DNA of 64,000 bases from Odiellus spinosus. Lineage: Eukaryota; Arthropoda; Arachnida; Opiliones; Phalangiidae. Where the stretch lies: NCBI GenBank assembly GCA_963920705.1, contig OY987237.1:15654601-15718600 (forward strand), written 5' to 3'. Shown here in pieces: positions 161 through 24,800 of this stretch. Each line of letters opens with the position of its first letter. The first letter of the stretch is position 1. The position numbers and the translations under genes were made by a program. The notes beneath the pieces are model-generated. The model was not told the origin of the DNA. It searched no databases and saw nothing but the letters and a program-made list of their open reading frames with translations.

Positions 161-180
161 AAATAAAAATGATAAATACA

Positions 181-1418
181 CCCCCTGTAAAAATACACCC
201 CCTGTAAAAATACACCCCCTGTAAAAATACACCCCCTGTAAAAATACACCCCCTGTAAAAATACACCCCCTGTAAAAATACACCCCCTGTAAAAATACAC
301 CCCCTGTAAAAATACACCCCCTGTAAAAATACACCCCCTGTAAAAATACACCCCCTGTAAAAATACACCCCCTGTAAAAATACACCCCCTGTAAAAATAC
401 ACCCCCTGTTAAAATACACCCCCTGTAAAAATACACCCCCTATAAAAATACGACACCTTGAAAAATACACCCCCTGTAAAAATACACCCCCTGTAAAAAT
501 ACACCCCCTGTAAAAATACGACACCTGTAAAAATACACCCCCTGTAAAAATACACCCCCTGTAAAAATACACCCCCTGTAAAAATACACCCCCTGTAAAA
601 ATACACCCCCTGTAAAAATACACCCCCTGTAAAAATACACCCCTGTAAAAATACACCCCCTGTAAAAATACACCCCCTGTAAAAATACACCCCCTGTAAA
701 AATACACCCCTTGTAAAAATACACCCCCTGTAAAAATACACCCCCTGTAAAAATACACCACCTGTAAAAATACACCACTTGTAAAAATACACCCCCTGTA
801 AAAATACACCCCCTGTAAAAATACACCCCCTGTAAAAATACACCCCCTGTAAAAATACACCCCCTTTAAAAATACACCTGTAAAAATACACCCCCTGTAA
901 AAATACACCCCCTGTAAAAATACACCCCCTGTAAAAATACACCCCTTGTAAAAATACACCCCCTGTAAAAATACACCACCTGTAAAAATACACCACTTGT
1001 AAAAATACACCCCCTGTAAAAATACACCCCCTGTAAAAATACACCCCCTGTAAAAATACACCTCCTGTAAAAATACACCCCCTGTAAAAATACACCCCCT
1101 GTAAAAATACACCCCCTGTAAAAATACACCCCCTGTAAAAACACACCCCCTGTAAAAACACACCCCCCTGTAAAAATACACCCCCTGTAAAAATACACCC
1201 CCTGTAAAAATTAACCCCCTGTAAAAATACACCCCCTGTAAAAATACACCCCCTGTAAAAATACACCCCCTGAAAAAATACACCCCCTGTAAAAATACAC
1301 CCCCTGTAAAAATACACCCCCTGTAAAAATACACCCCCTGTAAAAATACACCCCCTATAAAAATACACCCCCAGTAAAAATACACCCCTTGTAAAAATAC
1401 ACCCCCTGTAAAAATACA
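181..1418. repeat. 17-bp minisatellite block, copy 1
   Basis: Roughly 70 units of TACACCCCCTGTAAAAA. Point variants such as ATACGACACC, CACCACTTG and TTAACCCCC are scattered in it. The minus strand carries a run of five G in every unit. Confidence 0.95.
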
Positions 1419-1449
1419 GGAAAATTGAGACTTGGAAAATTGAGACTTG

Positions 1450-1808
1450 GAAATTTTGAGATTTGAGATTTTTGAGATTTGAGATTTTTGAGATTTGAGA
1501 TTTTTGAGATTTGAGATTTTTGAGATTTGAGATTTTTGAGATTTGAGATTTTTGAGATTTGAGATTTTTGAGATTTGAGATTTTTGAGATTTGAGATTTT
1601 TGAGATTTGAGATTTTTGAGATTTGAGATTTTTGAGATTTGAGATTTTTGAGATTTGAGATTTTTGAGATTTGAGATTTTTGAGATTTGAGATTTTTGAG
1701 ATTTGAGATTTTTGAGATTTGAGATTTTTGAGATTTGAGATTTTTGAGATTTGAGATTTTTGAGATTTGAGATTTGAGATTTTTGAGATTTGAGATTTGA
1801 GATATTTG
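1450..1808. repeat. 16-bp minisatellite block, copy 1
   Basis: A very homogeneous run of GAGATTTTTGAGATTT units, about 22 copies, entered through a two-unit TTGAGACTTGG junction at about 1419-1450. Confidence 0.95.
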
Positions 1809-1950
1809 ATATTGGGAAAATTGAGACTTGGAAAAATTGAGATTGGGAAAATTGAGATTGGGAAAATTGAGATTGGGAAAAGTGAGATGGGGAAAATTGA
1901 GATTGGGAAATTGAGATTGGGAAAATTGAGATTGGGAAAATTGAGATTGT
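1809..1950. repeat. 15-bp minisatellite block, copy 2
   Basis: Nearly identical, variant for variant, to positions 18-160. It leads into the next 17-mer block through the same AT-rich junction. Confidence 0.93.
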
Positions 1951-1967
1951 AAAAAATAAAAATGATA

Positions 1968-4900
1968 AATACACCCCCTGTAAAAATACACCCCCTGTAA
2001 AAATACACCCCCTGTAAAAATACACCCCCTGTAAAAATACACCCCCTGTAAAAATACACCCCCTGTAAAAATACACCCCCTGTAAAAATACACCCCCTGT
2101 AAAAATACACCCCTGTAAAAATACACCCCCTGTAAAAATACACCCCCTGTTAAAATACACCCCCTGTAAAAATACACCCCCTATAAAAATACGACACCTT
2201 GAAAAATACACCCCCTGTAAAAATACACCCCCTGTAAAAATACACCCCCTGTAAAAATACACCCCCTGTAAAAATACACCCCCTGAAAAAATACACCCCC
2301 TGTAAAAATACACCCCCTGTAAAAATACACCCCCTGTAAAAATACACCCCCTATAAAAATACGACACTTGTAAAAATACGACACTTGTAAAAATACACCC
2401 CCTGTAAAAATACACCCCCTGTAAAAAAATATTAAAAATACACCCCCTGTAAAAATACACCCCCTGTAAAAATACACCCCCTGTAAAAATACACCCCCTG
2501 TAAAAATACACCCCCTGTAAAAATACACCCCCTGTAAAAATATATCCCCTGTAAAAATACACCCCCTGTAAAAATACACCCCCTGTAAAAATACACCCCC
2601 TGTAAAAATACACCCCCTATAAAAATACGACACCTGTAAAAATACACCCCTTGTAAAAAAAAATTAAAATACACCCCCTGTAAAAATACACCCCCTGTAA
2701 AAATACACCCCCTGTAAAAATACACCCCCTGTAAAAATACACCCCCTATAAAAATACACCCCCTGTAAAAATACACCCACCTATAAAAATACGACACCTG
2801 CAAAAATACACCCCCTGTAAAAATACACCCCCTGTAAAAATACAACCCCTGTAAAAATACACCCCCTGTAAAAATACACCCCCTGTAAAAATACACCACC
2901 AGTAAAAATACACCCCCTGTAAAAATACACCCCCTGTAAAAATACACCCCCTATAAAAATACACCCCCTGTAAAAATACACCCCCTATAAAAATACGACA
3001 CCTTGAAAAATACACCCCCTGTAAAAATACACCCCCTGTAAAAATACACCCCCTGTAAAAATACACCTGTAAAAATACACCCCCTGTAAAAATACACCCC
3101 CTGTAAAAATACACCCCCTGTAAAAATACACCCCCTGTAAAAATACACCCCCTGTAAAAACACACCCCCTGTAAAAATACACCCCCTGTAAAAATACACC
3201 CCCTGTAAAAATTAACCCCCTGTAAAAATACACCCCCTGTAAAAATACACCCCTATAAAAATACACCCCTATAAAAATACGACACCTGTAAAAATACGAC
3301 ACCTGTAAAAATACACCCCCTGTAAAAATACACCCCCTGTAAAAATACACCCCCTGTAGAAATACACCCCCTGTAAAAATACACCCCCTGTAAAAATACA
3401 CCCCCTATAAAAATACACCCCCTGTAAAAATACACCCCCTGTAAAAATACACCCCCTGTAAAAATACACCCCCTGTAAAAATACACCCCCTGTAAAAATA
3501 CACCCCCTGTAAAAATACACCCCCTTTAAAAATACACCTGTAAAAATACACCCCCTGTAAAAATACACCCCCTGTAAAAATACACCCCCTGTAAAAATAC
3601 GACACCTGTAAAAATACACCCCCTGTAAAAATACACCCCCTGTAAAAATACACCCCCTGTAAAAATACACCCCCTTCAAAAATACACCCCCTGTAAAAAT
3701 ACACCCCCTGTAAAAATACACCCCCTGTAAAAATACACCCCCTGTAAAAATACACCCCTGTAAAAATACACCCCTGTAAAAATACACCCCCTGTAAAAAT
3801 ATACCCCCTGTAAAAATACACCCCCTGTAAAAATACACCCCTTGTAAAAATACACCCCCTGTAAAAATACACCCCCTGTAAAAATACACCACCTGTAAAA
3901 ATACACCCCCTGTAAAAATACACCCCCTGTAAAAAAAATAAATTAAAAATACACCCCCTGTAAAAATACACCCCCTGTAAAAATACACCCCCTGTAAAAA
4001 TACACCCCCTGTAAAAATACACCCCCTGTAAAAATACACCTCCTGTAAAAATACACCACCAGTAAAAATACACCCCCTGTAAAAATACACCCCCTGTAAA
4101 AATACACCCCCTGTAAAAATACACCCCCTGTAAAAATACACCCCCTGTAAAAATACACCCCCTGTAAAAATACACCCCCTATAAAAATACACCCCCTGTA
4201 AAAATACACCCCCTATAAAAATACGACACCTTGAAAAATACACCCCCTGTAAAAATACACCCCCTGTAAAAATACACCCCCTGTAAAAATACACCCCCTG
4301 TAAAAATACACCCCCTGTAAAAATACACCCCCTGTAAAAATACACCCCCTGTAAAAATACACCCCCTGTAAAAACACACCCCCTGTAAAAACACACCCCC
4401 TGTAAAAACACACCCCCTGTAAAAATACACCCCCTGTAAAAATACACCCCCTGTAAAAATACACCCCCTGTAAAAATTCACCCCCTGTAAAAATACACCC
4501 CCTGTAAAAATACACCCCCTGTAAAAATTCACCCCCTGTAAAAATACACCCCCTGTAAAAATACACCCCTATAAAAATACACCCCTATAAAAATACACCC
4601 CCTGTAAAAATACACCCCCTGTAAAAATACACCCCCTGTAAAAATACACCCCCTGTAAAAATACACCCCCTGTAAAAATACACCCCCTGTTAAAATACAC
4701 CCCCTGTAAAAATACACCCCCTGTAAAAATACACCCCCTGTAAAAATACACCCCCTATAAAAATACACCCCCTGTAAAAATACACCCCCTGTAAAAATAC
4801 ACCCCCTGTAAAAATACACCCCCTGTAAAAATACACCCCCTGTAAAAATACACCCCCTGTAAAAATACACCCCCTGTAAAAATACACCCCCTGTAAAAAT

Positions 4901-7613
4901 ACACCCCCTGTAAAAATACACCCCCTGTAAAAATACACCCCCTGTAAAAATACACCCCCTGTAAAAATACACCCCCTGTAAAAATACACCCCCTGTAAAA
5001 ATACACCCCCTGTAAAAATACACCACCAGTAAAAATACATCCCCTGTAAAAATACACCCCCTGTAAAAAAAAATTAAAAATACACCCCCTGTAAAAATAC
5101 ACCCCCTGTAAAAATACACCCCCTGTAAAAATACACCCCCTGTAAAAATACACCCCCTGTAAAAATACACCCCCTGTAAAAATACACCCCCTGTAAAAAT
5201 ACACCCCCTGTAAAAATACACCCCCTGTAAAAATACACCCCCTGTAAAAATACACCCCCTGTAAAAATACACCTCCTGTAAAAATACACCACCAGTAAAA
5301 ATACACCCCCTGTAAAAATACACCCCCTGTAAAAATACACCCCCTGTAAAAATACACCCCCTGTAAAAATACACCCCCTGTAAAAATACACCCCCTGTAA
5401 AAATACACCCCCTGTAAAAATACACCCCCTGTAAAAATACACCCCCTGTAAAAATACACCCCCTGTAAAAATACACCCCCTATAAAAATACGACACCTTG
5501 AAAAATACACCCCCTGTAAAAATACACCCCCTGTAAAAATACACCCCCTGTAAAAATACACCCCCTGTAAAAATACACCCCCTGTAAAAATACACCCCCT
5601 GTAAAAATACACCCCCTGTAAAAACACACCCCCTGTAAAAACACACCCCCTGTAAAAATACACCCCCTGTAAAAATACACCCCCTGTAAAAATACACCCC
5701 CTGTAAAAATTAACCCCCTGTAAAAATACACCCCCTGTAAAAATACACCCCCTGTAAAAATACACCCCCTGTAAAAATACACCCCTATAAAAATACACCC
5801 CCTGTAAAAATACACCCCCTGTAAAAATACACCCCCTGTAAAAATACACCCCCTGTAAAAATACACCCCCTGTAAAAATACACCCCCTGTAAAAATACAC
5901 CCCCTGTAAAAATACACCCCCTGTAAAAATACACCCCCTGTAAAAATACACCCCCTGTAAAAATACACCCCCTGTAAAAATACACCCCCTGTAAAAATAC
6001 ACCCCCTGTAAAAATACACCCCCTGTAAAAATACACCCCCTGTAAAAATACACCCCCTGTAAAAATACACCCCCTGTAAAAATACACCCCCTGTAAAAAT
6101 ACACCCCCTGTAAAAATACACCCCCTGTAAAAATACACCCCCTGTAAAAATACACCCCCTGTAAAAATACACCCCCTGTAAAAATACACCCCCTGTAAAA
6201 ATACACCACCAGTAAAAATACATCCCCTGTAAAAATACACCCCCTGTAAAAAAAATTAAAAATACACCCCCTGTAAAAATACACCCCCTGTAAAAATACA
6301 CCCCCTGTAAAAATACACCCCCTGTAAAAATACACCCCCTGTAAAAATACACCCCCTGTAAAAATACACCCCCTGTAAAAATACACCCCCTGTAAAAATA
6401 CACCCCCTGTAAAAATACACCCCTGTAAAAATACACCCCCTGTAAAAATACACCCCCTGTAAAAATACACCCCTTGTAAAAATACACCCCCTGTAAAAAT
6501 ACACCCCCTGTAAAAATACACCCCCTGTAAAAATACACCACCTGTAAAAATACACCCCCTGTAAAAATACACCCCCTGTAAAAAAAATAAATTAAAAATA
6601 CACCCCCTGTAAAAATACACCCCTGTAAAAATACACCCCCTGTAAAAATACACCCCCTGTAAAAATACACCCCCTGTAAAAATACACCACCAGTAAAAAT
6701 ACATCCCCTGTAAAAATACACCCCCTGTAAAAAAAATTAAAAATACACCCCCTGTAAAAATACACCCCCTGTAAAAATACACCCCCTGTAAAAATACACC
6801 CCCTGTAAAAATACACCCCCTGTAAAAATACACCCCCTGTAAAAATACACCCCCTGTAAAAATACACCCCCTGTAAAAATACACCCCTGTAAAAATACAC
6901 CCCCTGTAAAAATACACCCCCTGTAAAAATACACCCCTTGTAAAAATACACCCCCTGTAAAAATACACCCCCTGTAAAAATACACCCCCTGTAAAAATAC
7001 ACCACCTGTAAAAATACACCCCCTGTAAAAATACACCCCCTGTAAAAAAAATAAATTAAAAATACACCCCCTGTAAAAATACACCCCTGTAAAAATACAC
7101 CCCCTGTAAAAATACACCCCCTGTAAAAATACACCCCCTGTAAAAATACACCACCAGTAAAAATACATCCCCTGTAAAAATACACCCCCTGTAAAAAAAA
7201 TTAAAAATACACCCCCTGTAAAAATACACCCCCTGTAAAAATACACCCCCTGTAAAAATACACCCCCTGTAAAAATACACCCCCTGTAAAAATACACCCC
7301 CTGTAAAAATACACCCCCTGTAAAAATACACCCCCTGTAAAAATACACCCCTGTAAAAATACACCCCCTGTAAAAATACACCCCCTGTAAAAATACACCC
7401 CTTGTAAAAATACACCCCCTGTAAAAATACACCCCCTGTAAAAATACACCCCCTGTAAAAATACACCACCTGTAAAAATACACCCCCTGTAAAAATACAC
7501 CCCCTGTAAAAAAAATAAATTAAAAATACACCCCCTGTAAAAATACACCCCTGTAAAAATACACCCCCTGTAAAAATACACCCCCTGTAAAAATACACCC
7601 CCTGTAAAAATAC
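1968..7613. repeat. 17-bp minisatellite block, copy 2 (main block)
   Basis: About 330 units of TACACCCCCTGTAAAAA over 5.6 kb. Rare spacers such as GTAAAAAAAATAAATT and the variant CACCACCAGT mark higher-order units. The variant starts at 6204, 6685 and 7149 and the spacer at 6578, 7042 and 7506, giving a 464-bp period with one 481-bp unit that is longer by exactly one 17-mer. Confidence 0.95.
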
Positions 7614-7935
7614 AGGAAAATTGAGACTTGGAAAATTGAGACTTGGAAAATTGAGACTTGGAAAATTGAGACTTGGAAATTTTGAGATTTGGGATTTTTG
7701 AGATTTGAGTTTTTTGAGATTTGAGATTTTTGAGATTTGAGATTTTTGAGATTTGAGATTTTTGAGATTTGAGATTTTTGAGATTTGAGATTTTTGAGAT
7801 TTGAGATTTTTGAGATTTGAGATTTTTGAGATTTGAGATTTTTGAGATTTGAGAGATTTGAGATTTTTGAGATTTGAGATTTTTGAGATTTGAGATTTTT
7901 GAGATTTGAGAGATTTGAGGTTTTTGAGATTTGAG
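7614..7935. repeat. 16-bp minisatellite block, copy 2
   Basis: Four TTGAGACTTGGAAAA junction units, then GAGATTTTTGAGATTT units with small losses (GAGAGATTTGAG) that show decay relative to copy 1. Confidence 0.93.
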
Positions 7936-7939
7936 ATTT

Positions 7940-8335
7940 GAGATTTTTGAGATTGGGAAAATTGAGATTCGAGATTTTTGAGATTGGGAAAATTCAGATT
8001 GGGAAAATTGAGATTGGGAAAATTGAGATTGGGAAAATTGAGATTGGGAAAATTGAGATTGGGAAAATTGAGATTGGGAAAATTGAGATTGGGAAAATTG
8101 AGATTGGGAAAATTGAGATTGGGAAAATTGAGATTGGGAAAATTGAGATTGGGAAAATTGAGATTGGGAAAATTGAGATTGGGAAAATTGAGATTGGGAA
8201 AATTGAGATTGGGAAAATTGAGATTGGGAAAATTGAGATTGGGAAAATTGAGATTGGGAAAATTGAGATTGGGAAAATTGAGATTGGGAAAATTGAGATT
8301 GGGAAAATTGAGATTGGGAAAATTGAGATTGTAAA
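7940..8335. repeat. 15-bp minisatellite block, copy 3
   Basis: About 24 nearly perfect TTGAGATTGGGAAAA units. On the plus strand two frames read as endless IEIGK or RLGKL pentamers, because 15 is divisible by three and the unit has no stop. This is not evidence of coding. Confidence 0.95.
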
Positions 8336-8518
8336 AAAGAAAAATGATAAATACACCCCCTGTAAAAAAATAAATATTAAATACACCCCCTGTAAAAAAA
8401 ATAAATAATAAATACACCCCCTGTAAAAAAATAAATAAAAAATACACCCCCTGTAAAAAAATAAATAATAAAAACACCTGTAAAAAAAAAAATAATAAAT
8501 ACACCCCCTGTAAAAAAA
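8336..8518. repeat. Diverged 17-mer block with AT-rich spacers
   Basis: Six CACCCCCTGTAAAA (or CACCTG) cores separated by AT-rich spacers such as AAATAAATAATAAA, giving a longer unit of about 30 bp. Confidence 0.88.
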
Positions 8519-8875
8519 AGATTTGGAAAATTGAGATTTGGGAAAATTGAGATTTGGGAAAATTGAGATTTGGGAAAATTGAGATTTGGGAAAATTGAGA
8601 TTTGGGAAAATTGAGATTTGGGAAAATTGAGACTGGGAAAATTGAGATTGGGAAAATTGAGATTGGGAAAATTGAGATTGGGAAAAGTGAGATTGGGAAA
8701 ATTGAGATTGGGAAAATTGAGACTGGGAAAATTGAGATTGGGAAAATTGAGATTGGGAAAATTGAGATTGGGAAAATTGAGATTGGGAAAATTGAGATTG
8801 GGAAAATTGAGATTGGGAAAATTGAGATTGGGAAAAGTGAGATTGGGAAAAGTGAGATTGGGAAAATTGAGATTG
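8519..8875. repeat. 15/16-bp minisatellite block, copy 4
   Basis: Begins with about six 16-bp TTGAGATTTGGGAAAA units and passes into 15-bp TTGAGATTGGGAAAA units. The change of unit length by one T shows how one family arose from the other. Confidence 0.92.
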
Positions 8876-8984
8876 TAAAAAATAAAAATGATAAATACAC
8901 CCCCTGTAAAAAATAAATAATAAATACACCCCCTGTAAAAAAAATAAATATTAAATACACCCCTTGTAAAAAAAAAATAATTGA

Positions 8985-9020: not shown

Positions 9021-9246
9021 AATTGATTTTTTTTTACAATGCTATAAAAACTTTCATACCAGCGTTTGATACCACACGAATACCCTTTCGTTTGATATCG
9101 CACAAAAATGGTTTTATAGCAAAATGCACAAAATCAGGTGCGTAACCCAAGTCCTAAAGAAAATGATGAGAAAGAAACTAAGTATCAAAAATTTAACACT
9201 CGCCAAACTCTTATTTTAAAAAAGTACTGGAAATTTTCTCCTAGCT

Positions 9247-9388
9247 GCTGTGAGAAGAGACATGGTAATTTCCGACAGATAATCGAAAACGAGATACCAC
9301 CGTAAACTAGTTGGGGTGCTGTGAGAAGAGACATGGTAATTTCCGCCAGATAATCGAAAACGAGATACCACCGTAAACTAGTTGGGGT
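9247..9388 (-). repeat. 71-bp tandem duplication inside AtuA exon 2
   Basis: Copies 9247-9317 and 9318-9388 differ at about one base (CGACAG against CGCCAG). Both carry the same frame change between VYGG and YLVFDYL, so the small deletion came before the duplication. Confidence 0.93.
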
Positions 9389-9497
9389 ACTGTTAGAACA
9401 ACCCAACATATTAGCTTCCATATTTTAAAATTCGCGCAGTTTTATTACCTAAGCCTTGGTTTGTTCTTTGGAAAATGGAAAGATACCTGAAGTTGAA

Positions 9498-9505
9498 GTG
9501 TCTCC
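9498..9505. repeat. Left target-site duplication of the P-like element
   Basis: GTGTCTCC, repeated exactly at 12050-12057. Confidence 0.92.
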
Positions 9506-9994
9506 CATAGACATATGAAAAATAAGCTAGACCCACTGCCCTATGGGGGGGGTACGTCAGACCCAGGTGGCTGCCATTTGAGGGACAATCCGTTTTCCGC
9601 GCCATCTGACGGGCGAGAACTGAATTATTTAATTCACTTTCGCCCCCATATGAGCAACCCCCTTCATGTGTATGCTCGCGCCATCTGATGCTACGAATAA
9701 AAACTAAAATATGGCGAACACGTATTTCGTCTGCTATAAAAGCCGAAAGCACAGATATTGTTGAAAATTTTATATTTCTTGCCTCCTTTGTAACGGAAGC
9801 AACGTTATTTTAGATTCCTGATTCCTTTTATTATTGTTATAATTAATATTATTAGGATGCTACTTGTTAGTTTTAGTAAAAGAAGATTTATGTACCGGCG
9901 TTGAAAAGAATCCACAAAATAAATTACAGGGAAGCGGAATTATAAAGGTATTTAACAGGCTTTATTTCCCTTCAAACAAAAATAATTTTGATAG

Positions 9995-10421
9995 TTTTTT
10001 TTTTTTTTTTTTTTTTTTTTTTCTCCGGATTGTTGACGAGCTAGGGCTAATAGCCTTAGAGCTCCAGTTAGAGGTAAATAGTTAAATAGTTATAATTTGA
10101 AATAGGCACGTAGTTTTGCCTTAAAGTGGTGAACAGCACGGACCGCGACAATGTCATTCGGAAGAGAATTCCAGAGAGGGATTACGCGACGAAAGAAAGA
10201 GTACTTGAGGGGGTCTTTGCGCGAGAATTGGTGCGAGAGTTTTAGAGAGTGACCTCTAGTCGCGTTACTTGGGGGGACGCGTGTGAAATAGTTTTGAGCG
10301 GGATCACTGAGTGACTTGAATAGTGTGACTAAGTCAAAGTAGGAGTTATGGCTAATGGCTTGCTTTTTTAATTGTAGGTTCTTATCTTTGGCGAACCTTT
10401 GCGTACAAATTAATAATGTTT
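9995..10421 (-). mobile_element. 5'-truncated LINE (non-LTR retrotransposon) 3' end
   Basis: On the minus strand a frame from about 10420 to the stop at 10092-10090 reads the typical C-terminal end of a LINE reverse-transcriptase protein, with KNLQLKKQAISHNSYFDLVT, then DPLKYSFFRRVIPLWNSLP and a final AKLRAYFKL. The motif YSFF-R-V-PLWNSLP is a hallmark of this region. After about 70 bp of 3' UTR a 28-nt T-run on the plus strand (9995-10022) is the element's poly(A) tail. A stop lies just upstream of 10421, so the 5' side is lost. It sits inside the P-like element, making a nested insertion. I found no clear target duplication. The clade is not assigned. Confidence 0.85.
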
Positions 10422-10853
10422 TTCATTAATCTATTACGATGGTGTCAGAAATAGATGAACCGAAATTATCAACGAGCTATTCCTCTAACGCCACAGGCAA
10501 GTTCTCCGTTTCCCCTCTCTTAGACGACAGTTGTAGCCCCCTCCCCCGCGGAATTTCGCCTAGCCGAGAAACGTTGAATGCGCCACCTGGCTTGGTTTGC
10601 AGCCGTCGCTACGTGGGGCGATCAGTTTCCCAAGATCCTCCTCGGTATTTCATTGAGGCCGAGGAAGCCCGTTCCCCCAGTGCTTACCCTCCCCATTCAC
10701 TCCAAATAAAATGCATTTCCCAATCTAAGCTCTCGTTGATAATTTCGGTTCATCTATTTCTGATGGTGTTCGATACCAACTTCAAAATCGAACATGTGCT
10801 CTTGAAGCTCGCTTAATACATTTGCATTTACCAACTTTCGCATAACAGCAATT

Positions 10854-11737
10854 TCAATGGATAGTGAAATGTTTTTTTGATTTCATATCAACAGAAACGT
10901 TTTGCCGAATGTATGACTCTGTCAAAGCGCAGATTTGTAAAACACTTTTTGATGGCTGTTTTAATCCTCCATTAAGGATTAAATAAATTCTATGTCCCAT
11001 TGGATTCGCAGGATTTGAGAAACTGGGGTCCAAATATTCTGTATCCAAATTTGCTCCCAATGTTTTGGCCATAGTTAAATTGCTGCTTAAGCCGTCGCTA
11101 ACCAAAGGCACGCACTTAACTCCAGTGGCGTTGATCCTGGCTAAACATTCTTTCACAAGCTGCGTCAAGAGCCGCCCGGTGTACCATCAAGCAAGAAATA
11201 CCCAAGAGGTATTTTCCAACTGCAGTTGATAGCTACTAACATAAATACCAAAGTCCTGTGACGCAATAGTTTGGCTATCTCGGCTGTTATTGGAAACCAT
11301 ATCCCAGCAAACACAAAAGGTCCCAAGAGCATCCGATATGCCATAGTCAACGAAGCCGGAGAAGTATTCCCCGCACCATCCCTTTACGTTACTTTTGCAC
11401 AATCAACCACTTAATTTTAGTTATTAACCTTTGTTGGAACAATATTATCTCTAAGATAGTGTTTTCCGTTTTGAACATAAATTTCTTCCTCCTGGAAATG
11501 TTCACTACGCACTGAATCATATGAAGATGGATTCCAATTGTCTCGATCTACCACAGCTATCCATTTTCTTTGCAACTCACTATTGCCCAGAAGAAATCTT
11601 AATAATAAAAATGCACCTCGGTTATTGTACATTTTGATTATATTAAAATGTTTTTTTATACCTATGAAATGAACACTTTTGTTCCTTCCCGACTCTCTTA
11701 TTGCGTTTACATTGCAAAAAGCACAACTTTTAACCAT
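10854..11737 (-). pseudogene. THAP-type P-element transposase remnant
   Basis: The first part (11737-11417) is a THAP DNA-binding domain: CAFC near the N-terminus, a tryptophan (RDNWNPSSYDS), SEHF, and a closing VPTKV. The cysteine expected before SEHF is Arg here (VRSEHF), so one zinc ligand is lost. Further on, GFVDYG (near 11340) and LVFMLVAINCSWKIPLGYFL (about 11250-11200) lie in different frames, showing a frameshift. A third frame (11168-10854) reads VPLVSDGLSSNLTMAKTLGA and NPMGHRIYLIL, typical of the RNase-H-like catalytic core of P/THAP9 transposases. The aspartates in VDYG and SDG would be the first two catalytic acids. The later glutamate region is missing. ATTGTTCCAACAAAG followed by GTTAAT at about 11430 could be a splice donor. 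It is the decayed gene of the surrounding P-like element. Confidence 0.85.
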
Positions 11738-11921
11738 TTTTAGTCTTCTATTATTTCGCCTTTACCCAAGCTCTCAAACCTCAAAAAGTTGCTTAATCAT
11801 TTTGTAATTTCCCGCGCTTTTGCTTTTACTCAAATGGCCTATTAGCATCTTTAGGTTTCCCGCGCTTTCATAAACGAGAATTCATCCCTTCAAATTTCCC
11901 GCGGTTTTTCCCTTTTAAAGT

Positions 11922-11936
11922 GTCTGATCCTTCTTG
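11922..11936. mobile_element. Solo end of MITE family A
   Basis: GTCTGATCCTTCTTG is identical to the right end of the MITE at 12307-12595. No matching left end is nearby, so this is a fragment lying within the P-like element. Confidence 0.5.
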
Positions 11937-12049
11937 ACTAGATGGCGCTAAATACATAATGTCCCTCAAATGGCAGCCTTCGGTTCTCGACGTTTTCCCC
12001 CCCGGTTGGCCGTGAGGGTAGTGGATCTAGCTTATTTTTCATATCTATG

Positions 12050-12057
12050 GTGTCTCC
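12050..12057. repeat. Right target-site duplication of the P-like element
   Basis: GTGTCTCC, identical to 9498-9505. It corresponds to the Gly-Asp-Thr codons of the AtuA signature read on the minus strand. Confidence 0.92.
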
Positions 12058-12306
12058 CCAAAAACCAGATGCTGAACCAATTTTAATCGTCTTATTCGGC
12101 AGCGCACTGTAATTTCTATGTAGATTATTAACTAAATTAACATTTCTAAATTTAATTACGCGATACATTGTCTTAAAATTAAAACAAAACTAAACAAGAC
12201 AAGACAACCTTCGTGAATTTGTTAATCGTTACAAATTACTACTAAAATCTAACATCAGCAGACGACGCTAGTGACAGCAGGGTCGGTTTACTAGGGTTCA
12301 TGCAGG

Positions 12307-12595
12307 CAAGAAGGATCAGACAAGGAGAGGAAAAGTGGGGACGGCGCGGTTCTTACTGCGTCGGCCTAAACTCCCACTCTGGGAGAACGGGGGTAGAGAT
12401 GTTTCGTGGTAAAATGTTGTCACGTGGGTAAAACGGATCCTTTATCAGCTTCGTAGTAGCCAACGACGCTAGTGACCACGTGACAAGTTTACCTCGAGAA
12501 TTTCCTATCCCAATTTCCACCCGAGTGGGAGGTTGGCTCTTCTCTCTCTAACTCAACGCAGCCCTACTTTTCCTCTCCTTGTCTGATCCTTCTTG
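12307..12595. mobile_element. MITE family A, copy 1
   Basis: 289 bp with long terminal inverted repeats (CAAGAAGGATCAGACAAGGA at the left, its inverse complement at the right) and an exact 7-bp target duplication ATGCAGG (12300-12306 and 12596-12602). It has no coding capacity. It is close to copy 2 at 24155-24435, which lies in the opposite orientation. Confidence 0.92.
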
Positions 12596-12602
12596 ATGCA
12601 GG

Positions 12603-14914: not shown

Positions 14915-15692
14915 TTATTCGTCTTTCGACTTGGAAGAAGTTTCGGTCGGACTGTCTTTCTTAGACGCGTTACTAGAATCTTCATCATCCGAATATTCGG
15001 TCGGTTCCTCACCGGGTTTTAATAGTTTGCCAATGTATATGTATTTTTCTTTAGGGGAGAATAACTGATTAGTCAGGAATACTAAAGGGATAGAAAATGA
15101 ATTTAATAAGATGTATATTCACCCGTAAACTGCATCTCCCATTCCCGAATCGATTCCATATCCATCGGACCTAAGTCTGAAAGATCATCGTATTCGTCAC
15201 CCTTCGGCGCTGCAACGGTAAAAGTAGCTAAACCTCTCGACGCATCCCGCCCAGCGAATGCGTTGTAAGGGCCACCTGTTTATCGAATATTGACTTATAC
15301 ATTAGTCTTTTAAAGAAAAGTGAGGTAGTTTAGCACTTACCAGGCCCGTAGAAGTCTTTTCCACGAGTCACGTCGAATATCTTTCCATTTACAGCTACGC
15401 AAACTCGACCGTCAGGTCCGAGACCGTTATATTGCCGTAGCTGGACTACAGTCATATCTTGCTTCTTGAGGGGCGGTGGTAGAGGATCTTCGGGTTCTTG
15501 TGGCTCAATTTTTTCTCGGCCGCTGAAGAGTAGTTTGTAGATTAACACGCCGCATATTCCGATTAGAACTAAATTAACAGGGCTATATATGATGGACTCT
15601 ACTATTTCTATTAACACTGATTTATTCGATTCTAACGCCTCTTTAATCGTGGACGAAGTCGCCTCGCTTCCCTCCACCGGTACTTCAGCCAT
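14915..15692 (-). CDS. PGRMC: Membrane-associated progesterone receptor component (PGRMC-like)
   Basis: PGRMC proteins are single-pass membrane proteins of the ER with a cytochrome-b5-like domain that binds haem and supports cytochrome P450 and sterol metabolism. There are three exons: 15692-15341, 15275-15123 and 15048-14915, with introns GTAAGT...ACAG and GTGAAT...AAAG, giving 212 residues. One transmembrane helix lies at about residues 39-56. The cytochrome-b5-like domain follows from about residue 79: [18 protein letters not shown], then [31 protein letters not shown] and [18 protein letters not shown]. The FYGP tyrosine that ligates haem iron in mammalian PGRMC1 is present (about Tyr115). 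The acidic, Ser-rich tail after YSDDED also fits. ATG 15692 (MAEVPVEG) is preferred, because the frame upstream has only a GTG. AATAAA overlaps the stop codon. It is head-to-head with NDUFB7, 514 bp apart. Whether it is the PGRMC1 or PGRMC2 type is not resolved. Confidence 0.95.
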
Positions 15693-16206
15693 TTTCACTA
15701 AAGATAATTTAGTTTTTTACGCCGTAATCAGCGATAAAAAAAAATTCCGGCACACTCCAAAAACTAAATGTCACTAAGCCTACTCTACTACAATAAGATT
15801 AAGAAGTACGCGACTGAGCGATGATGCAAAAATGACTTGGCAATCAACAATTTGACGATGTTCGGGATTAGGCCATCTACCAATAATTTTAATCAATAAT
15901 TTGAACAATATCCTACTTAAATTAATTAAAACTTTTCACGTTAATAAAGTCACGGGCCAAAATCACTAGACTTAAATTAAAGTAAGCTGATTTAGTTTTT
16001 CTCAAAAGTGGCAGCAATGCTTAGCGAAAGATGGCAGAAAATAAAGGTATTATTGGAAAATAGTCAAAATTCAAAAAGGGTGCTTATATTCAGCACCTAG
16101 TGCCATCTATAGGTCAATTTATACGTTTTGATTGGAAGAAGAGAGGTCAAAGAGTATAAATTAAGTTATTGCGGAGGAATTCCCAGTTTCAAATTTTAAT
16201 TAAATT
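15693..16206. promoter_or_regulatory. Divergent promoter of PGRMC and NDUFB7
   Basis: 514 bp separate the two start codons, which point away from each other. This stretch must hold both promoters. No TATA box is obvious. GATGGCAGAAAAT and GTGCCATCTAT resemble the GCCAT motifs seen elsewhere in the window. The promoter role is inferred from position only. Confidence 0.6.
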
Positions 16207-16809
16207 ATGGGCCAGGTATTTTCTTTTTCCGGACCCCTGGCACCTTTAAATTCTATTCCGGATACACAAAAACCTCCAAGCTTTGATCCTGATTATGGTT
16301 TTCCAGCTGAAAGGAATGAGAGAGGTAAATTATAGATTATAGCTGCACTATAATATAGGCCTTGGCAAAACTTACTCCTAGAAATTCGGAATTCCACAAG
16401 TATATTGTTTTATACCTAAATCCAAAGCGAAGGTCTGTATCTCCGCTATTTTTCACGTATGTAAGGTTTACGCTTACAGTTATGATTGCCACTAAAGAAG
16501 AGATGGACGCTGCGAAACTAGATCACAAGTACCGGGATTATTGCGCCCATAAGTTAATCGAATATAAAGCGTGCAGACACAGTAATTTCCCATTTCTGGC
16601 TAAATGCGGTGCGGAGAAGCATCACTATCTTGAATGCCAATACGAAGAGTGGGTCCTTTTCTTAACACGGTTTATTAATATAATAAATTTAATAATATTA
16701 AGCTTTTACTTATAATTCAATTTTCAGTTACGTTTTGAGGATGAAAGAGTTTGAAAGGGAAAGAAGATTATTAGATAGAGTTGCTAAGAAAGCTGAAATA
16801 GAAGAATAA
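16207..16809 (+). CDS. NDUFB7: NADH dehydrogenase 1 beta subunit 7 (complex I B18)
   Basis: This accessory subunit of mitochondrial complex I sits on the intermembrane-space side. Three exons, 16207-16324, 16480-16648 and 16728-16809, have clean GT-AG introns (GTAAAT...TTACAG; GTGGGT...TTTCAG) and give 122 residues, the usual family size being about 120-140. The protein starts MGQVFSF, with Gly2 available for the N-myristoylation known in this subunit. VMIATKEEMDAA and RDYCAHKLIEYKAC follow. The twin CX9C motif is perfect (CAHKLIEYKAC and CGAEKHHYLEC), as expected for a disulfide-locked CHCH fold imported by the Mia40 route. The end YVLRMKEFERERRLLDRVAK is typical. AATAAA (16805-16810) overlaps the stop. 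All key residues are present. Confidence 0.97.
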
Positions 16810-18876: not shown

Positions 18877-21800
18877 TTATTTTTCGTTAACTTTGGCAGC
18901 CAATCTTTTCGTAACCCCGTTTTTAACACCATCTTGACTAACACCATTGATGGTCGATCCATTTTCCTTGGTTGTACCATTTTGTTCCTTGTGGGCGTGA
19001 CCATTTTTGCTATCATTGCCATTGACTGCGGATTTACCATTGACCGATTTGCTTTTTTTGGAGAATTTAGAGTTTGCAACGGCCGCGTTCATACGCTTGC
19101 TCAATGGCCGGATGTAAGAATCGCGGAAAAATTCCCAGAAAAGAAACCAGAACATGACAGCGTGGAATCCAATCCACCACATAAAACCGCGGGGATAGTG
19201 ACAGTCGATGAACAAAAGTTGGAAAGAGTGAACGAAGATCATGATGAATTGAACCTAGGATAAAAATTGGTCAAATATATTTACACTAACATCGGAAGAT
19301 TCTCACAAAGCTAGCCAAGCCTAATCCCACCATTTCCCGCGAGCAAAGTTCACTAAGCCTAATCCCACCATTTCCCGCGAGCAAAGTTCACTAAGCCTAA
19401 TCCCACCATTTCCCGCGAGCAAAGTTCACTAAGCCTAATCCCACCATTTCCCGCGAGCAAAGTTCACTAAGCCTAATCCCACCATTTCCAGCGCGCAAAG
19501 CTAGCTTAGGCTAATCTCAAAAACTCACCATTTGAATTCCAGTCATATATTTCTTCCACCAGAGATACTTGTACATGTGAGGTCCAATGGCAGCAACGCC
19601 GTAGTAGAAGTACATCAAAATGTGAACAAAACTATTGATGAAGGCAAAGAAGGTACTGTGGCCGCCTGCAATAAGTAGAAAAACAAATATTAGTAATAAT
19701 TACATTTCCCTGAAAATAAAACGAGTCTCGGAAAGTTACAGACCTGGAGTGAACTTAACACCGAACCAAACGCTCATGGGCATGACACCGTGGTGTATAA
19801 CGTGAAGGGTTGATACGTGAGTGTATTTTTTCCGTAAGACAAAAAATATCGTGTCAGCAAATTCGATGAATTTTGAGAAATAGTACCAATAAGCGGTGCT
19901 AACCATCTGAGCAAAAAAAAAAATATTAATTAAGTACTTTTAAGTATCGTAGTAATTTTAATTAAAAATTTACATTTAAGGCGTCGCTAGAATTGCTATA
20001 ATCAATTGGTTGGCATTTCCAACTGTATTTCGTGAACCACCCGTATTGACCGAGCTAAAATAGAGAACATTGATTAAGGACGAAAAAGAAATAAAAAGCT
20101 GACTAAATTCTTTCGCGAAATACTTACCCAAAAGAAAAGTAGGAAACTAACGATGACCATAGCGAAATTGTAAAAAATCATCACGCCTCTAATGTTGAAT
20201 GGTTCCCTGTCTTTCATTAAAGCTGGTCCTAATATTTTGACGAAACATACGTAGGATAGGCAAATGGATAAGGTGGGCAATGGACTCGACATCAATGGCC
20301 AATCAGCCACTCTCGTGTCTAAAAAAAAACGAAATTAATGACAGCAAATTAAAGAATATTCACTTGTTCCTCAAAGTATAAAGGCATGTCAATATAATTA
20401 TAAATTAGGTTATAATTTGTGTTAAAATAACCTAATTAAAGTTGTAATTTAAATCTAATTACTTCAAATTGGTGTACTTTAGAAATAAAAACTCCTTTAA
20501 AAGGGTTTATGACTAATTCATATTTTACTTTCAACGCGTTACTCCCGACACCGACGCAAAAACGATATAGATCATTAAACTAATTAAATGAGATTAAAAT
20601 TACGTTGTCGCGTTTTGAAATTAATTCATTTTGAATCAAAATGTTGTGGGAGATTCTGCAAACAACGTATAAATAAAAATTCTCAAAGGGATAATGAAAT
20701 TTTCCATTTTTTTACCTTCCCTTTAATAGAACTCTAACAAGACTTATAATATTACGAAATGTTTGACACTTCGAAAAAATCTGAACCAGTGTCATTGGAT
20801 TAAGTTAAATTGGAGCAAATCTTCGTGACCTAGCTTCCAAAAATATAAATTAACCGTATCCAGGTTAAGAGGTTTTGGAATTCAACTATATGCCGGTAGT
20901 TAGAATTAGAAATCACTAAAAGAGAAACTTTTTGCCGCGTTCACACTAGACTTTAGCTAGCATTTCTAAATCGATTTGAAACTATAAAATCGTTTTAAGC
21001 GTCACGTGTTCACACATGGTTATAAATCGATTTTTTATAGCTTCATCTATCGGTTATTGAAACCGAATCGGTACGAAACTGGTTCCCGAAGCCGATTCGA
21101 GAAATCGAATCGATTCGATTCTAGAAAAGACGGTTTCCCGTTCACACGGCTACAGCAAACCGTTTTGAAACGGTTTAAATCGATTCATATGTCTAATATG
21201 AACGCGGCTTTTAAAACAGGTTTAAACCGTTTGAAGCGCAAAATGGAAAATTCGGGGGTTAACTGTAGAGATCATATGTCAAATAATTTAAACATTCCAA
21301 TAAAGGTTACAAGGCGTGTACATGATTTCCACAGACCTGGTACTCCTGGAAAACCTGTACAAGCCGAGGAATTTCAAAATGGGCCTAAAATCTCAGGGAA
21401 AGTAAGAGTATTTTAAAAACTGTCCAAAAGATCAGTAATTGTACCAAACTGTGACACAGAATTACTAAAGACCATTCCAAATTAATTCCTGAATAGTTGG
21501 TATTATTAAATAACCTTGGAACGAACAAAAAGAGCCGATAAAAAAAACTTGTTTCTATGGAAGATTTTCCCTTTTTCAAGGTTGAGACGAAGTTTTATAA
21601 TACCAACTATTCAGTGACTAAGGTAAATCACAAAACTAAGGTATACAAGCTTGGGAATTTATAACGTAGCTTCACATTTTTCTCAATTTCTCATTTACGG
21701 ATCCAGGATTCACATAAATTATGTTAAAGTAGTGTGTTAAGTAGAGAATTCATAACATACACCGTAAATTACACATTACTACTAGTTTAAACGTGTAGAT

Positions 21801-24800
21801 GTAGATGGTCAAGGAAAGTCGGGGAATTTTGTAACAACCTGGGTCTAGTGCGAACTTAGCGAACAGATTTTTATCGAAAAGGGGGCCGCCTTAACTGATT
21901 TAAAAGATCAGATAAGATCCAACTGTGGATAATTTATATAAGATTAAATAAAATGATGCGCACTAGCATTTTCGAAACGGTAAAATCAAACCGATATTTA
22001 AAATCGCCAGGAATCGTCACGAGTTCACAAAAACCGCGTTCATACTAGGTCTTGGAGTCGTGTGAACAGGAAACCGTCTTTTCTCGATTTGATTCGATTT
22101 CTCGAATCGAAACTCGCTTCGGGAAGCAGTTTCATACCGGTTTGGTTTCAACAACCGATAGATGAAGCTAAAATTAATGGATTTATAAAGATAATACGGT
22201 TTGATTTTTACCATTTCAAATCGATTATGATAAGCTAGTGTGATCGTAGCTTTATTATCTTTATAAATCGATTTACTGTAACTTCATCAATCGATTGTTG
22301 AAACCGAATCGGTACGAAACCGGTTCCCGAAGCAGTTTCGAAAAATCGAATCAAATCGAGTCAAGAAACGTTTTAAATCGATTCTATGGTCTAGTATGAA
22401 CGTGGCCAGAAGCCGATGAAACCCTCCTTTGAAGTCTATTACTCCCGGGTCTTGTCTACCCCTCTCTGTATGGGTTAAGTCTCAAAAAGCGCGATTCGTA
22501 CGCCTAATAACGGTAGATATTTTCGAAGCGGGAGTTCGTCGAGCGAATATCTCTAGCAGCCTTGGAGTTCGTCAAAAAAAACGTCGTCATTTGTGGAGAG
22601 AGAGAATTTCCAATTTTCCGTAGACAGGGGGGTATGAAGTAGGACCCCTCCGATCTCGTAAAATTGTGAATTTTACCCATACAGAGAGGAGCGCTATATC
22701 GAACATTAAGAGTAGTAGACTTCAAAGGAGAGTTTCATCGGCTTCTGACGTGGCTATTGAGTCGGGTTGCGTGTCTACATTAACAAAGAAGTAACTGGAA
22801 GAAATTTTAGTAAATTTAATAATTTAAAAATACGTAATAAATCATATTTTTAGATAATTCTCTGTATTTCATAGAAGTGTTACGCCCAATAAATATTCCA
22901 TAGCGGTAATGTCATAATGGACATTTAAGTTAACCTTGGACCAAAGGATTATTGACTTTGATTTATAGCACCATAGATATCGCGCTGCTTGAACCCATGT
23001 TGAATAGGATTAAATTAATAAAATTTATGTACTTCAAAAGTTTCGTTAGAAAAATTGACGACCTAACCGCAAAAGTTAAAATATATTTTTCTGAGGTCCT
23101 ATTTTGCGGTTTTATTTCCTTTTGGAATTTTTATTGTTTGTATGTTTGGATTTCCACTCGTTTCCCTTTGCCACTCCCTTTGGAATGGCAAGCACTTCGG
23201 TCCTGGTGACTTAAGCTACGGTCACACTAGCATTTGTTAATCGATTTGAAAATGTAAAATCAAACCGATATTCAAATCGCCAGGAATCGTTTTAAGCGCC
23301 AACTGTTCACGTATTATCTTTATAAATCGATTTATCGTAGCTTCATCTATCGGTTGTTGAAACCAGCCGAATCGGTACGAAACTAGTTCCCGAAGCAGTT
23401 TCGAGAAAACGAATCAAATCGATTCGAGAAACGACGGTTTCCCGTTCACGCGTCTCTAGCGAAACGTTTTGAAACGCTTTAAATCGATTTCAAGGGCTAG
23501 TATGAACGCGGCTTTAGTGACAGTGCCTCCATGAATTTCAAATAAAGAAAATAAAAATATGAATAATAAATTTACGAAGTTTTGCGTTATTTAATAAAGC
23601 CGTGTTCACACTAGAGACTTTCAAACAGTTTTTAACAGTTTAGGAAAAGGTCAAAATAGAAAATTTCGGGTACACTTGTAGAGATCTTTGTCCACAAAGT
23701 GTAATTAATCGGTTGAAAAGTCGATTTTGATCATTTGAAACGGTTTGAAAACAATTTCAAAGTGTCTAGTGTGAACGTAGCTTTTATAATAACCCAAGAA
23801 CTAATATTCAACACTTATCTTTAATTACTTAGATAATAACATTGTATTAGTGAAGTGTTCTTATAATATTTTGTAAATGAATTTCCTTGAAATTCCCAGA
23901 CTTATTTTAAAGCCAAAATATTGCTAGAAATTTAGAGAAATAAAATTGAAAATACATAAGATTGCCAGGTCTGCTTCGAGAGATTAAAATCGCCCATTTT
24001 TCGGCTTTGAAACCGTTCTGAATGTCTTCATAAATTCGCATAAATTGAAGAGTTTATTAATTTTATACGTTCTTTTCAATCGAATGTTATATAAAGTTTC
24101 CTGGAGATCTCGCGCTATCGATGGGTTTTGCTAATTTGTAGCTGACAATTGAATCAAGAAGGATCAGACGAGGAGAGGAAAAGTGGGGCTGCGTTGAGTT
24201 AGAGAGAGAAGAGCCAACCTCCCACTCGGGTGGAAAGGAAATTCTCGAGGTAAACTTGTCACGTGGTCACTAGCGTCGTCGACTACTACGAAGCTGATAA
24301 AGGATCCGTTTTACCCACGTGACAACATTTTACCACGAAACATCTCTACCCCCGTTCTCCCAGAGTGGGAGTTTAGGCCGACGTAGTAGGAACCGCGCCG
24401 TCCCCACTTTTCCTCTCCTTGTCTGATCCTTCTTGATACAATGAATCCAGCTAAGCCTATTTTTCCTGATAAGTTTTAAACTGATTTCTAGTTTAATATT
24501 TGTTCGTTAATTTCTTCACTAGTGGATTAGATCTATTTAAACTATAATGAATTGATAAAAAAAATCGGGTAAATTATTTAACAGATCTTAGGTACAATAC
24601 GTGTTAGAAATATCAATGAAAAGCCCTTTTAACTACTAAACTATAGGTTTCCTTAATCTTGGAGAAATCTGAAGAAATAAAAATGAACTAATGTAAGGTA
24701 ATCAAGTATCTCGTATCTTTACAAAAGTTTAAATTAAAAAATAGGTTACCGGGTAAAATATTTATTCCAATCTTCATTGTAACTCAGATATAATGACATT

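Follow-up and report, generated by a model that had tools for sequence, protein, structure and literature searches.

Within the window (the whole 64,000-nucleotide stretch of the Odiellus spinosus genome analyzed here), a P-superfamily element of 2544 bp at 9506-12049 lies in exon 1 of a minus-strand AtuA-like gene sequence. The features of the element and its host are:

9498-9505, no strand assigned: left copy of the target-site duplication (TSD), GTGTCTCC, a perfect match to the right copy
12050-12057, no strand assigned: right copy of the TSD, GTGTCTCC, a perfect match to the left copy
9506-12049, minus strand: non-autonomous P-superfamily element, with transposase remnants on the minus strand and its 5' end at 12049
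9506-9542, no strand assigned: left terminal inverted repeat (transposase 3' side), its first 33 bp found at 72 genomic places
12015-12049, no strand assigned: right terminal inverted repeat (transposase 5' side), found at 56 genomic places
9569-9587, no strand assigned: left arm of a perfect 19-bp subterminal inverted repeat, 63 bp inside the end
11960-11978, no strand assigned: right arm of the same repeat, 71 bp inside the end
11420-11737, minus strand: remnant of a THAP domain, followed by a stop and probably interrupted by one short intron (PF05485, E 4.5e-7, 31 bits, cut-off 23.9)
10857-11383, minus strand: RNase-H N-terminal domain remnant, split between frames (PF21787, E 1e-7 and 4e-7; tblastn with P0121)
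9993-10343, minus strand: nested insertion 1, probable 5'-truncated non-LTR retrotransposon (LINE) tail whose poly-A lies on the minus strand, its borders accurate to within a few bases
10446-10762, no strand assigned: nested insertion 2, a 317-bp MITE with perfect 31-bp inverted ends (CAGAAATAG...) and a 7-bp duplication, ATGGTGT
12050-12168, minus strand: AtuA-like exon 1 from its ATG at 12168 to the insertion, one TSD copy included (rejoined frame, protein alignment, tblastn)
9487-9497, minus strand: last 11 nt of AtuA-like exon 1, beyond the insertion (rejoined frame)
9390-9486, minus strand: AtuA-like intron 1, 97 nt, GT..AG (rejoined frame, paralogue alignment)
9228-9389, minus strand: AtuA-like exon 2, broken, with 10 nt missing relative to the paralogue and a 71-bp tandem duplication
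9060-9153, minus strand: AtuA-like exon 3 (DLGYAPDFV...SNAG) with usable splice sites (open frame, tblastn)

Large tandem arrays adjoin the AtuA fragment at 174-8981, including a 17-bp unit (AAATACACCCCCTGTAA, ~444 copies in 174-7614) and units of 15, 32 and 29 bp; they run on across the 10 kb that precede the window (L048), which are almost all satellite. Beside the fragment, at 12307-12600, a repeat of ~300 bp has the inverted ends AAGAAGGATCAGACAAGGAGAGG and shares 95% identity with 24150-24435. Near the AtuA locus there are also a cytochrome-b5-like gene at 15106-15716 (PF00173 below cut-off), which we take to be PGRMC-like, and an NDUFB7 exon at 16362-16715 (PF05676). Elsewhere in the window, minus-strand pieces resembling fatty-acid elongases (ELO, PF01151) scored above the Pfam cut-off at 54247-54549 and 56274-56585 and below it at 18877-19242 and 50916-51212; they perhaps belong to more than one gene, because two of them match the end of the profile. 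Between 22407 and 58154 a ~340-bp repeat occupies 12 places in the window, counting the reference copy; one place spans 90 bp and another 269 bp, and the copies other than the reference are 92-96% identical to it and lie in both orientations.

When the element and one TSD copy are removed, the minus strand of the rejoined flanks reads ...IKIGSASGFWGDTSTS, then the 97-nt GT..AG intron, then VPQLVYGG. An earlier interpretation made from the letters alone (hereafter the sequence-only reading) had proposed this junction within a coding exon and had assigned the host to the AtuA family, naming a lack of AtuA/DUF1446 similarity as the result that would speak against it. Both the junction and the exon proved correct, and the rejoined exons matched metazoan AtuA proteins (PF07287) with a best E of 6e-36, at 71% identity over 88% of the query. 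In that search 4687 of 4774 candidates reached E <= 0.001, and the 120 matches listed carry PF07287, the highest identity among them being at most 77%. The AtuA invariants ASGFWGDT, PQL, FDYLxEITMSLL, GYxPDF and SNAG are present in the host piece, while the short AtuA pieces scanned alone with Pfam fell below cut-off. Our search for literature on AtuA in animals found nothing relevant.

The similarity does not extend to a complete coding gene at this locus. No AtuA exon after exon 3 was detected in the window (tblastn with five AtuA proteins) or in the preceding 40 kb. Exon 2 carries a tandem duplication of 71 bp (9246-9316 and 9317-9387, 1 mismatch), and because the 10-nt deletion is found in both tandem copies, the frame of the fragment was broken independently of the transposon. 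In an alignment with seven metazoan AtuA proteins, three residues are absent from the window sequence between VYGG and YLVFDYL. The description of a P element splitting an AtuA gene, as given in the sequence-only reading, therefore stands for the insertion in exon 1 but not for a working gene, the host being a truncated duplicate of exons 1-3 with exon 2 frameshifted; the frameshift, the partial duplication of exon 2 and the two insertions nested in the element had been overlooked.

A far more complete AtuA gene is located at C15:3396591-3404006, 12.3 Mb from the window on the same contig. Searching the genome with P0004, an AtuA protein of Nymphon, returned 10 matches (14 of 14 candidates scored), nine in this interval and one at the window locus, and with this full protein the later AtuA exons were found at one other genomic place only, the C15 paralogue. 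Its coding pieces span residues 17-629 of the 638 in P0004 with some gaps, and the gene is likely to be intact. With the element left out, BLAST aligns the window from ~12281 to 9041 to the paralogue as two overlapping segments, 89% and 91% identical and interrupted by indels. There are 5 differences among the 130 sites of exon 1 and 4 among the 97 of intron 1 (together 9/227), compared with 31/140 before the ATG and 42/325 from exon 2 onward, the higher values arising partly because unrelated ends and the duplication fall in those stretches. Any date for the AtuA duplication is rough, as the figure of ~4% covers exon 1 and intron 1 only, the whole segment stands at 89-91% with indels, and the paralogue may be constrained. 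Because introns are retained in the window fragment, the duplication took place at the DNA level. The paralogue has one uninterrupted GGAGACAC, and its single copy of the target at C15:3404114 represents the empty site; the check for such a site suggested in the sequence-only reading was thus answered by a paralogue, not by an allele.

The borders of the element follow from the duplication and the inverted ends, and here the sequence-only reading was exact. For one fixed pair of ends, identity of an 8-bp TSD has a chance probability of 4^-8 = 1.5e-5. The terminal inverted repeats are imperfect, 37 bp on the left and 35 bp on the right (CATAGACATATGAAAAATAAGCTAGACCCACTGCCCT and CATAGATATGAAAAATAAGCTAGATCCACTACCCT), with 33 of 35 bases the same plus a 2-nt gap when aligned by eye. 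A weaker inverted alignment (113 columns, 76%) runs inward from the ends and takes in the subterminal repeat. In the genome searched (443 Mb, 286 contigs), where repeat counts are lower bounds, 64 of the 72 places found for the left 33 bp at <=2 mismatches were perfect, and reversed-pattern controls of both ends gave 0. Single-copy ends had been named in advance as an argument against a transposon; both ends are multi-copy.

Two internal stretches of ~1.3 kb each are missing from the window copy relative to a full-length relative at C4. One deletion removes the HTH and the region of the first catalytic Asp, the other the GTP-binding insertion and the RNase-H C-terminal part, so that among the RNase-H domains only part of RNaseH_N is retained. 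Where the THAP pattern C-x2-4-C...C-x2-H calls for a zinc-ligand Cys, 36 of 37 copies, the window copy among them, carry the codon CGT (Arg) and the remaining one has no match, and C4 and C11 carry Cys. With two 1.3-kb deletions, the lost zinc Cys and two nested insertions, the window copy is incapable of making transposase. The protein nearest to its encoded remnants, among the 3 matches that a search gave, was an unnamed fragment of 341 aa with 69% identity over 51% of the query.

The poly-A end and the look of the translation indicate that the first nested insertion is probably a LINE tail; it had no Pfam family-model match above cut-off. It has 19 genomic matches, six of them full-length at >=95%, with the window and C14 among these. 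The MITE belongs to a family that is likewise very young, with 365 genomic candidates, of which the 40 scored were all ~100% identical. Both insertions are absent from the aligned A- and B-type copies of the element (described below), which show their empty sites. An origin of the two as native parts of the element was rejected on this ground, as they were present only in L011 among 36 two-ended copies. An open frame at 10093-10422, which runs together the C-terminal end of P and the LINE-like tail, was also discarded as a chance fusion at the insertion point.

A sister composite with both nested insertions is present on another contig, at C14:138255, with 2539 of 2541 aligned bases the same and a 3-nt difference in a T run. 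A search of the genome for the P/MITE junction pattern (<=2 mismatches) recovered the window and C14 only. The two composites share both insertions but differ in TSD (GTGTCTCC in the window, CTTTCAAC at C14), and we therefore conclude that the composite transposed after gaining both. On this sequence comparison the window copy appears young and very recently transposed. The composite stayed mobile while carrying ~670 bp of foreign sequence.

To characterize the family, the first 195 bp of the element were searched against the genome, giving 137 candidates; the 40 scored were all 99-100% identical, one being the window itself, and the other 39 were fetched. Since they were selected as those most similar to the left end of the window copy, they are biased to young copies. 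In 36 of the 39 the ends were CATAGA...CTATG with perfect, mutually distinct 8-bp TSDs, and in the other three (L022, L025, L044) no right end was found within the fetched 3150 bp. Most of the 36 are A-type (29 copies, 1861-1894 bp, median 0.27% from their own consensus; the window copy differs at 6/1868), six are B-type (2404-2498 bp, 3.1-3.6%), and one, at C14, is C-type (2541 bp). The window copy is also C-type, consisting of A-type sequence plus the LINE-like tail (with its T run) and the 317-bp MITE. The near-identity of the copies suggests recent movement of the family. Across 37 insertion sites, window included, the TSDs showed a base preference (G1 25/37, T2 19/37, A7 25/37, C8 26/37) with the consensus GT....AC. 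Palindromy over 14 bp of target lent no support, with 78 of 259 pairs against 69 +/- 7 for random 14-mers and 82 +/- 7 for shuffled partners.

Full-length relatives with the common ends were recovered at C4 (4426 bp, TSD GTTATAAC on both sides) and C11 (4393 bp, TSD AATGGAAC on both sides). Five pieces of C4 were scanned, and four of them together matched THAP, P-type HTH, RNaseH_N, the GTP-binding insertion, RNaseH_C and THAP9_C above cut-off; the fifth had no domain match. The acidic-triad positions of C4 were judged by eye against the invariant columns of an alignment (A2) in which C4 is not a row. A structure search with the RNase-H part of C4 gave 0 matches among solved structures at E <= 0.001. 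The joined C4 pieces without THAP gave 649 protein matches (7990 best candidates scored), of which 120 were listed at 33-42% identity; many of these are unnamed, and among the matches are P/THAP9-domain proteins named from octocoral, hagfish, sea spider, tick, isopod, aphid and fish.

The THAP start lies in a shifted frame in both C4 and C11, and C11 also has a stop and further breaks. Among the copies found in this family, none has a demonstrably intact transposase. Querying the genome with the C4 C-terminal half yielded 84 matches (142 of 147 candidates scored). At >=84% identity only C4 and C11 cover the first 150 residues of that half, the others being deleted copies, and the next matches belong to other subfamilies at 59-63% (C17, C8, C9). 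The longest single open frame among the 12 loci examined was 599 aa (L072). Single frames of 910 aa (C17) and 857 aa (C4) were considered and dropped, as the plain stop-to-stop frames at these places are no longer than 354 and 334 aa. The genome contains many other stretches resembling P/THAP9 transposase, for example at C17:616035-618467 and C2:29513757-29514995, with at least 70 matches to P0122 (66 of 406 candidates scored). The driving transposase may come from C4, from another subfamily or from a copy absent from the assembly.

We interpret the locus, with a probability of about 0.93, as an AtuA pseudogene fragment in which an 8-bp target within exon 1 received a non-autonomous P-superfamily element by cut-and-paste, the transposase acting in trans. 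P transposase binds close to the element termini, cleaves the DNA and connects the termini to the target strands at an 8-bp spacing; repair then produces the TSD, and copies that have internal deletions but good termini can be mobilized in trans (PMC7776569). The history would have begun with the copying of a segment containing the first three AtuA exons to the window locus. This fragment would have decayed, before or after the final transposition, first by the 10-nt deletion and then by tandem duplication of the 71 bp around that deletion. Separately, a P element of ~4.4 kb would have lost two internal stretches of ~1.3 kb to found a 1.9-kb deletion subfamily that multiplied, and one copy of this subfamily would have gained the probable LINE tail and the MITE. 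The composite would then have transposed very recently, the window copy being one of the two composites found. Both the action of transposase in trans and the order of these steps are what we infer from the comparisons above.

One could instead suppose that the insertion hit an AtuA gene that was still working, with the frameshift and tandem duplication of exon 2 coming later. Good preservation is seen in exon 1 (5/130 against the paralogue), in intron 1 and in exon 3, the splice sites are intact, and the damage to exon 2 may have come before or after the insertion. However, only exons 1-3 are found in the window and the preceding 40 kb, with the later exons at one other genomic place, and the composite is two substitutions from its sister compared with ~4% between the fragment and its source. 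Since the composite is very young and the fragment ~4% diverged, most of the history of the fragment would predate the insertion if rates are alike. A working gene as the host was rejected given the presence of exons 1-3 only, the broken exon 2 and the far fuller AtuA at C15, and we regard this course of events as improbable.

Assignment to the P superfamily, proposed in the sequence-only reading, draws on several characters. The 8-bp TSD is seen in the window and in 36/39 other copies, the multi-copy inverted repeats are short and begin with CAT (33/35 plus the 2-nt gap), and an N-terminal THAP (PF05485) is present in the window copy, its zinc Cys lost there. P-type HTH and RNase H with a GTP-binding insertion and an acidic triad (triad by eye) are found in C4. 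The GT....AC preference supports P but does not decide, because the motif of hobo, a hAT element, GTNCGNAC, resembles this consensus; the motifs in accord with it are GTCCGGAC for the D. melanogaster P element, GTTNAAC for 1360 and GTATTAC for Galileo (PMC3276498, PMC4168063). Since hobo also makes 8-bp duplications (PMC3276498), another superfamily with TSDs of this length, such as hAT, might be proposed as the source. Against this, the remnants and the full-length relative between them match THAP, Tnp_P_element HTH, TNP-like RNase H, the GTP-binding insertion and THAP9_C, including all six P/THAP9 domain models in the relative, which leaves such an origin with hardly any probability and upholds the P-like identification.

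The full-length copies recovered number just two, each with a damaged THAP start, and one passenger has become a composite carrying cargo; on this basis we tentatively raise a broader scenario, which we consider doubtful. In it, a natural P-type invasion would be under way in this host, carried almost wholly by internally deleted passengers, and the composite, ferrying a LINE tail and a MITE, would let P transposition spread copies of other elements. The borders, the duplication, the multi-copy ends, the paralogue and its empty site, and the empty sites of both nested insertions are all seen in the sequence. As one assembly holds the empty-site paralogue, the TSD and the empty sites of both nested insertions, the locus offers a clean case for border calibration. 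The view of how P elements work is unchanged by these data.

The ends of the Drosophila melanogaster P element start with CAT, as do those described here. The fly element is further alike in its 8-bp TSD, its terminal and subterminal inverted repeats, the order THAP, HTH, RNase H and GTP-binding insertion, and its internally deleted non-autonomous copies, which are 0.5-2.8 kb in the fly (PMC7776569). Its target preference, GTCCGGAC, is in line with GT....AC here (PMC3276498), so that a fly-P-like preference is present in another animal family. In contrast, the ends here are 37 and 35 bp and imperfect, whereas those of the fly are 31 bp and perfect; the subterminal repeats are 19 bp rather than 11, the full-length relatives 4.4 kb rather than 2.9 kb, and the window copy has two nested insertions.

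Zebrafish (Pdre2/THAP9) and the mosquito Anopheles (P elements with P-MITEs) already provide published cases of P-like transposons beyond flies, internally deleted copies included (PMC10983969, PMC1562414). The opinion in the sequence-only reading that readable P ends are uncommon outside flies is not borne out, considering these cases, the abundance of such ends in this genome (36/39 copies with perfect TSDs), and the 649 protein matches, P/THAP9-domain proteins from several animal groups among them. Zebrafish Pdre2/THAP9 likewise is P-like outside flies, has ends beginning CATA and an 8-bp TSD, and at least 50 P-homologous sequences, multiple of them internally deleted, are reported in that genome; the Pdre2 ends differ in being 13 bp with distant 12-bp subterminal repeats (PMC10983969). 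The Anopheles gambiae P elements and P-MITEs share perfect 8-bp TSDs and non-autonomous families beside full-length masters, with ends of 27-31 bp, but the centers of P-MITEs are unrelated to P, whereas the deleted copies here retain transposase remnants (PMC1562414). Galileo of Drosophila willistoni, also of the P superfamily, is similar in having other elements inserted inside it (17.3% of 191 copies) and in its TSD consensus GTATTAC, and differs in TSDs that are usually 7 bp and ends that are sometimes very long (PMC4168063).
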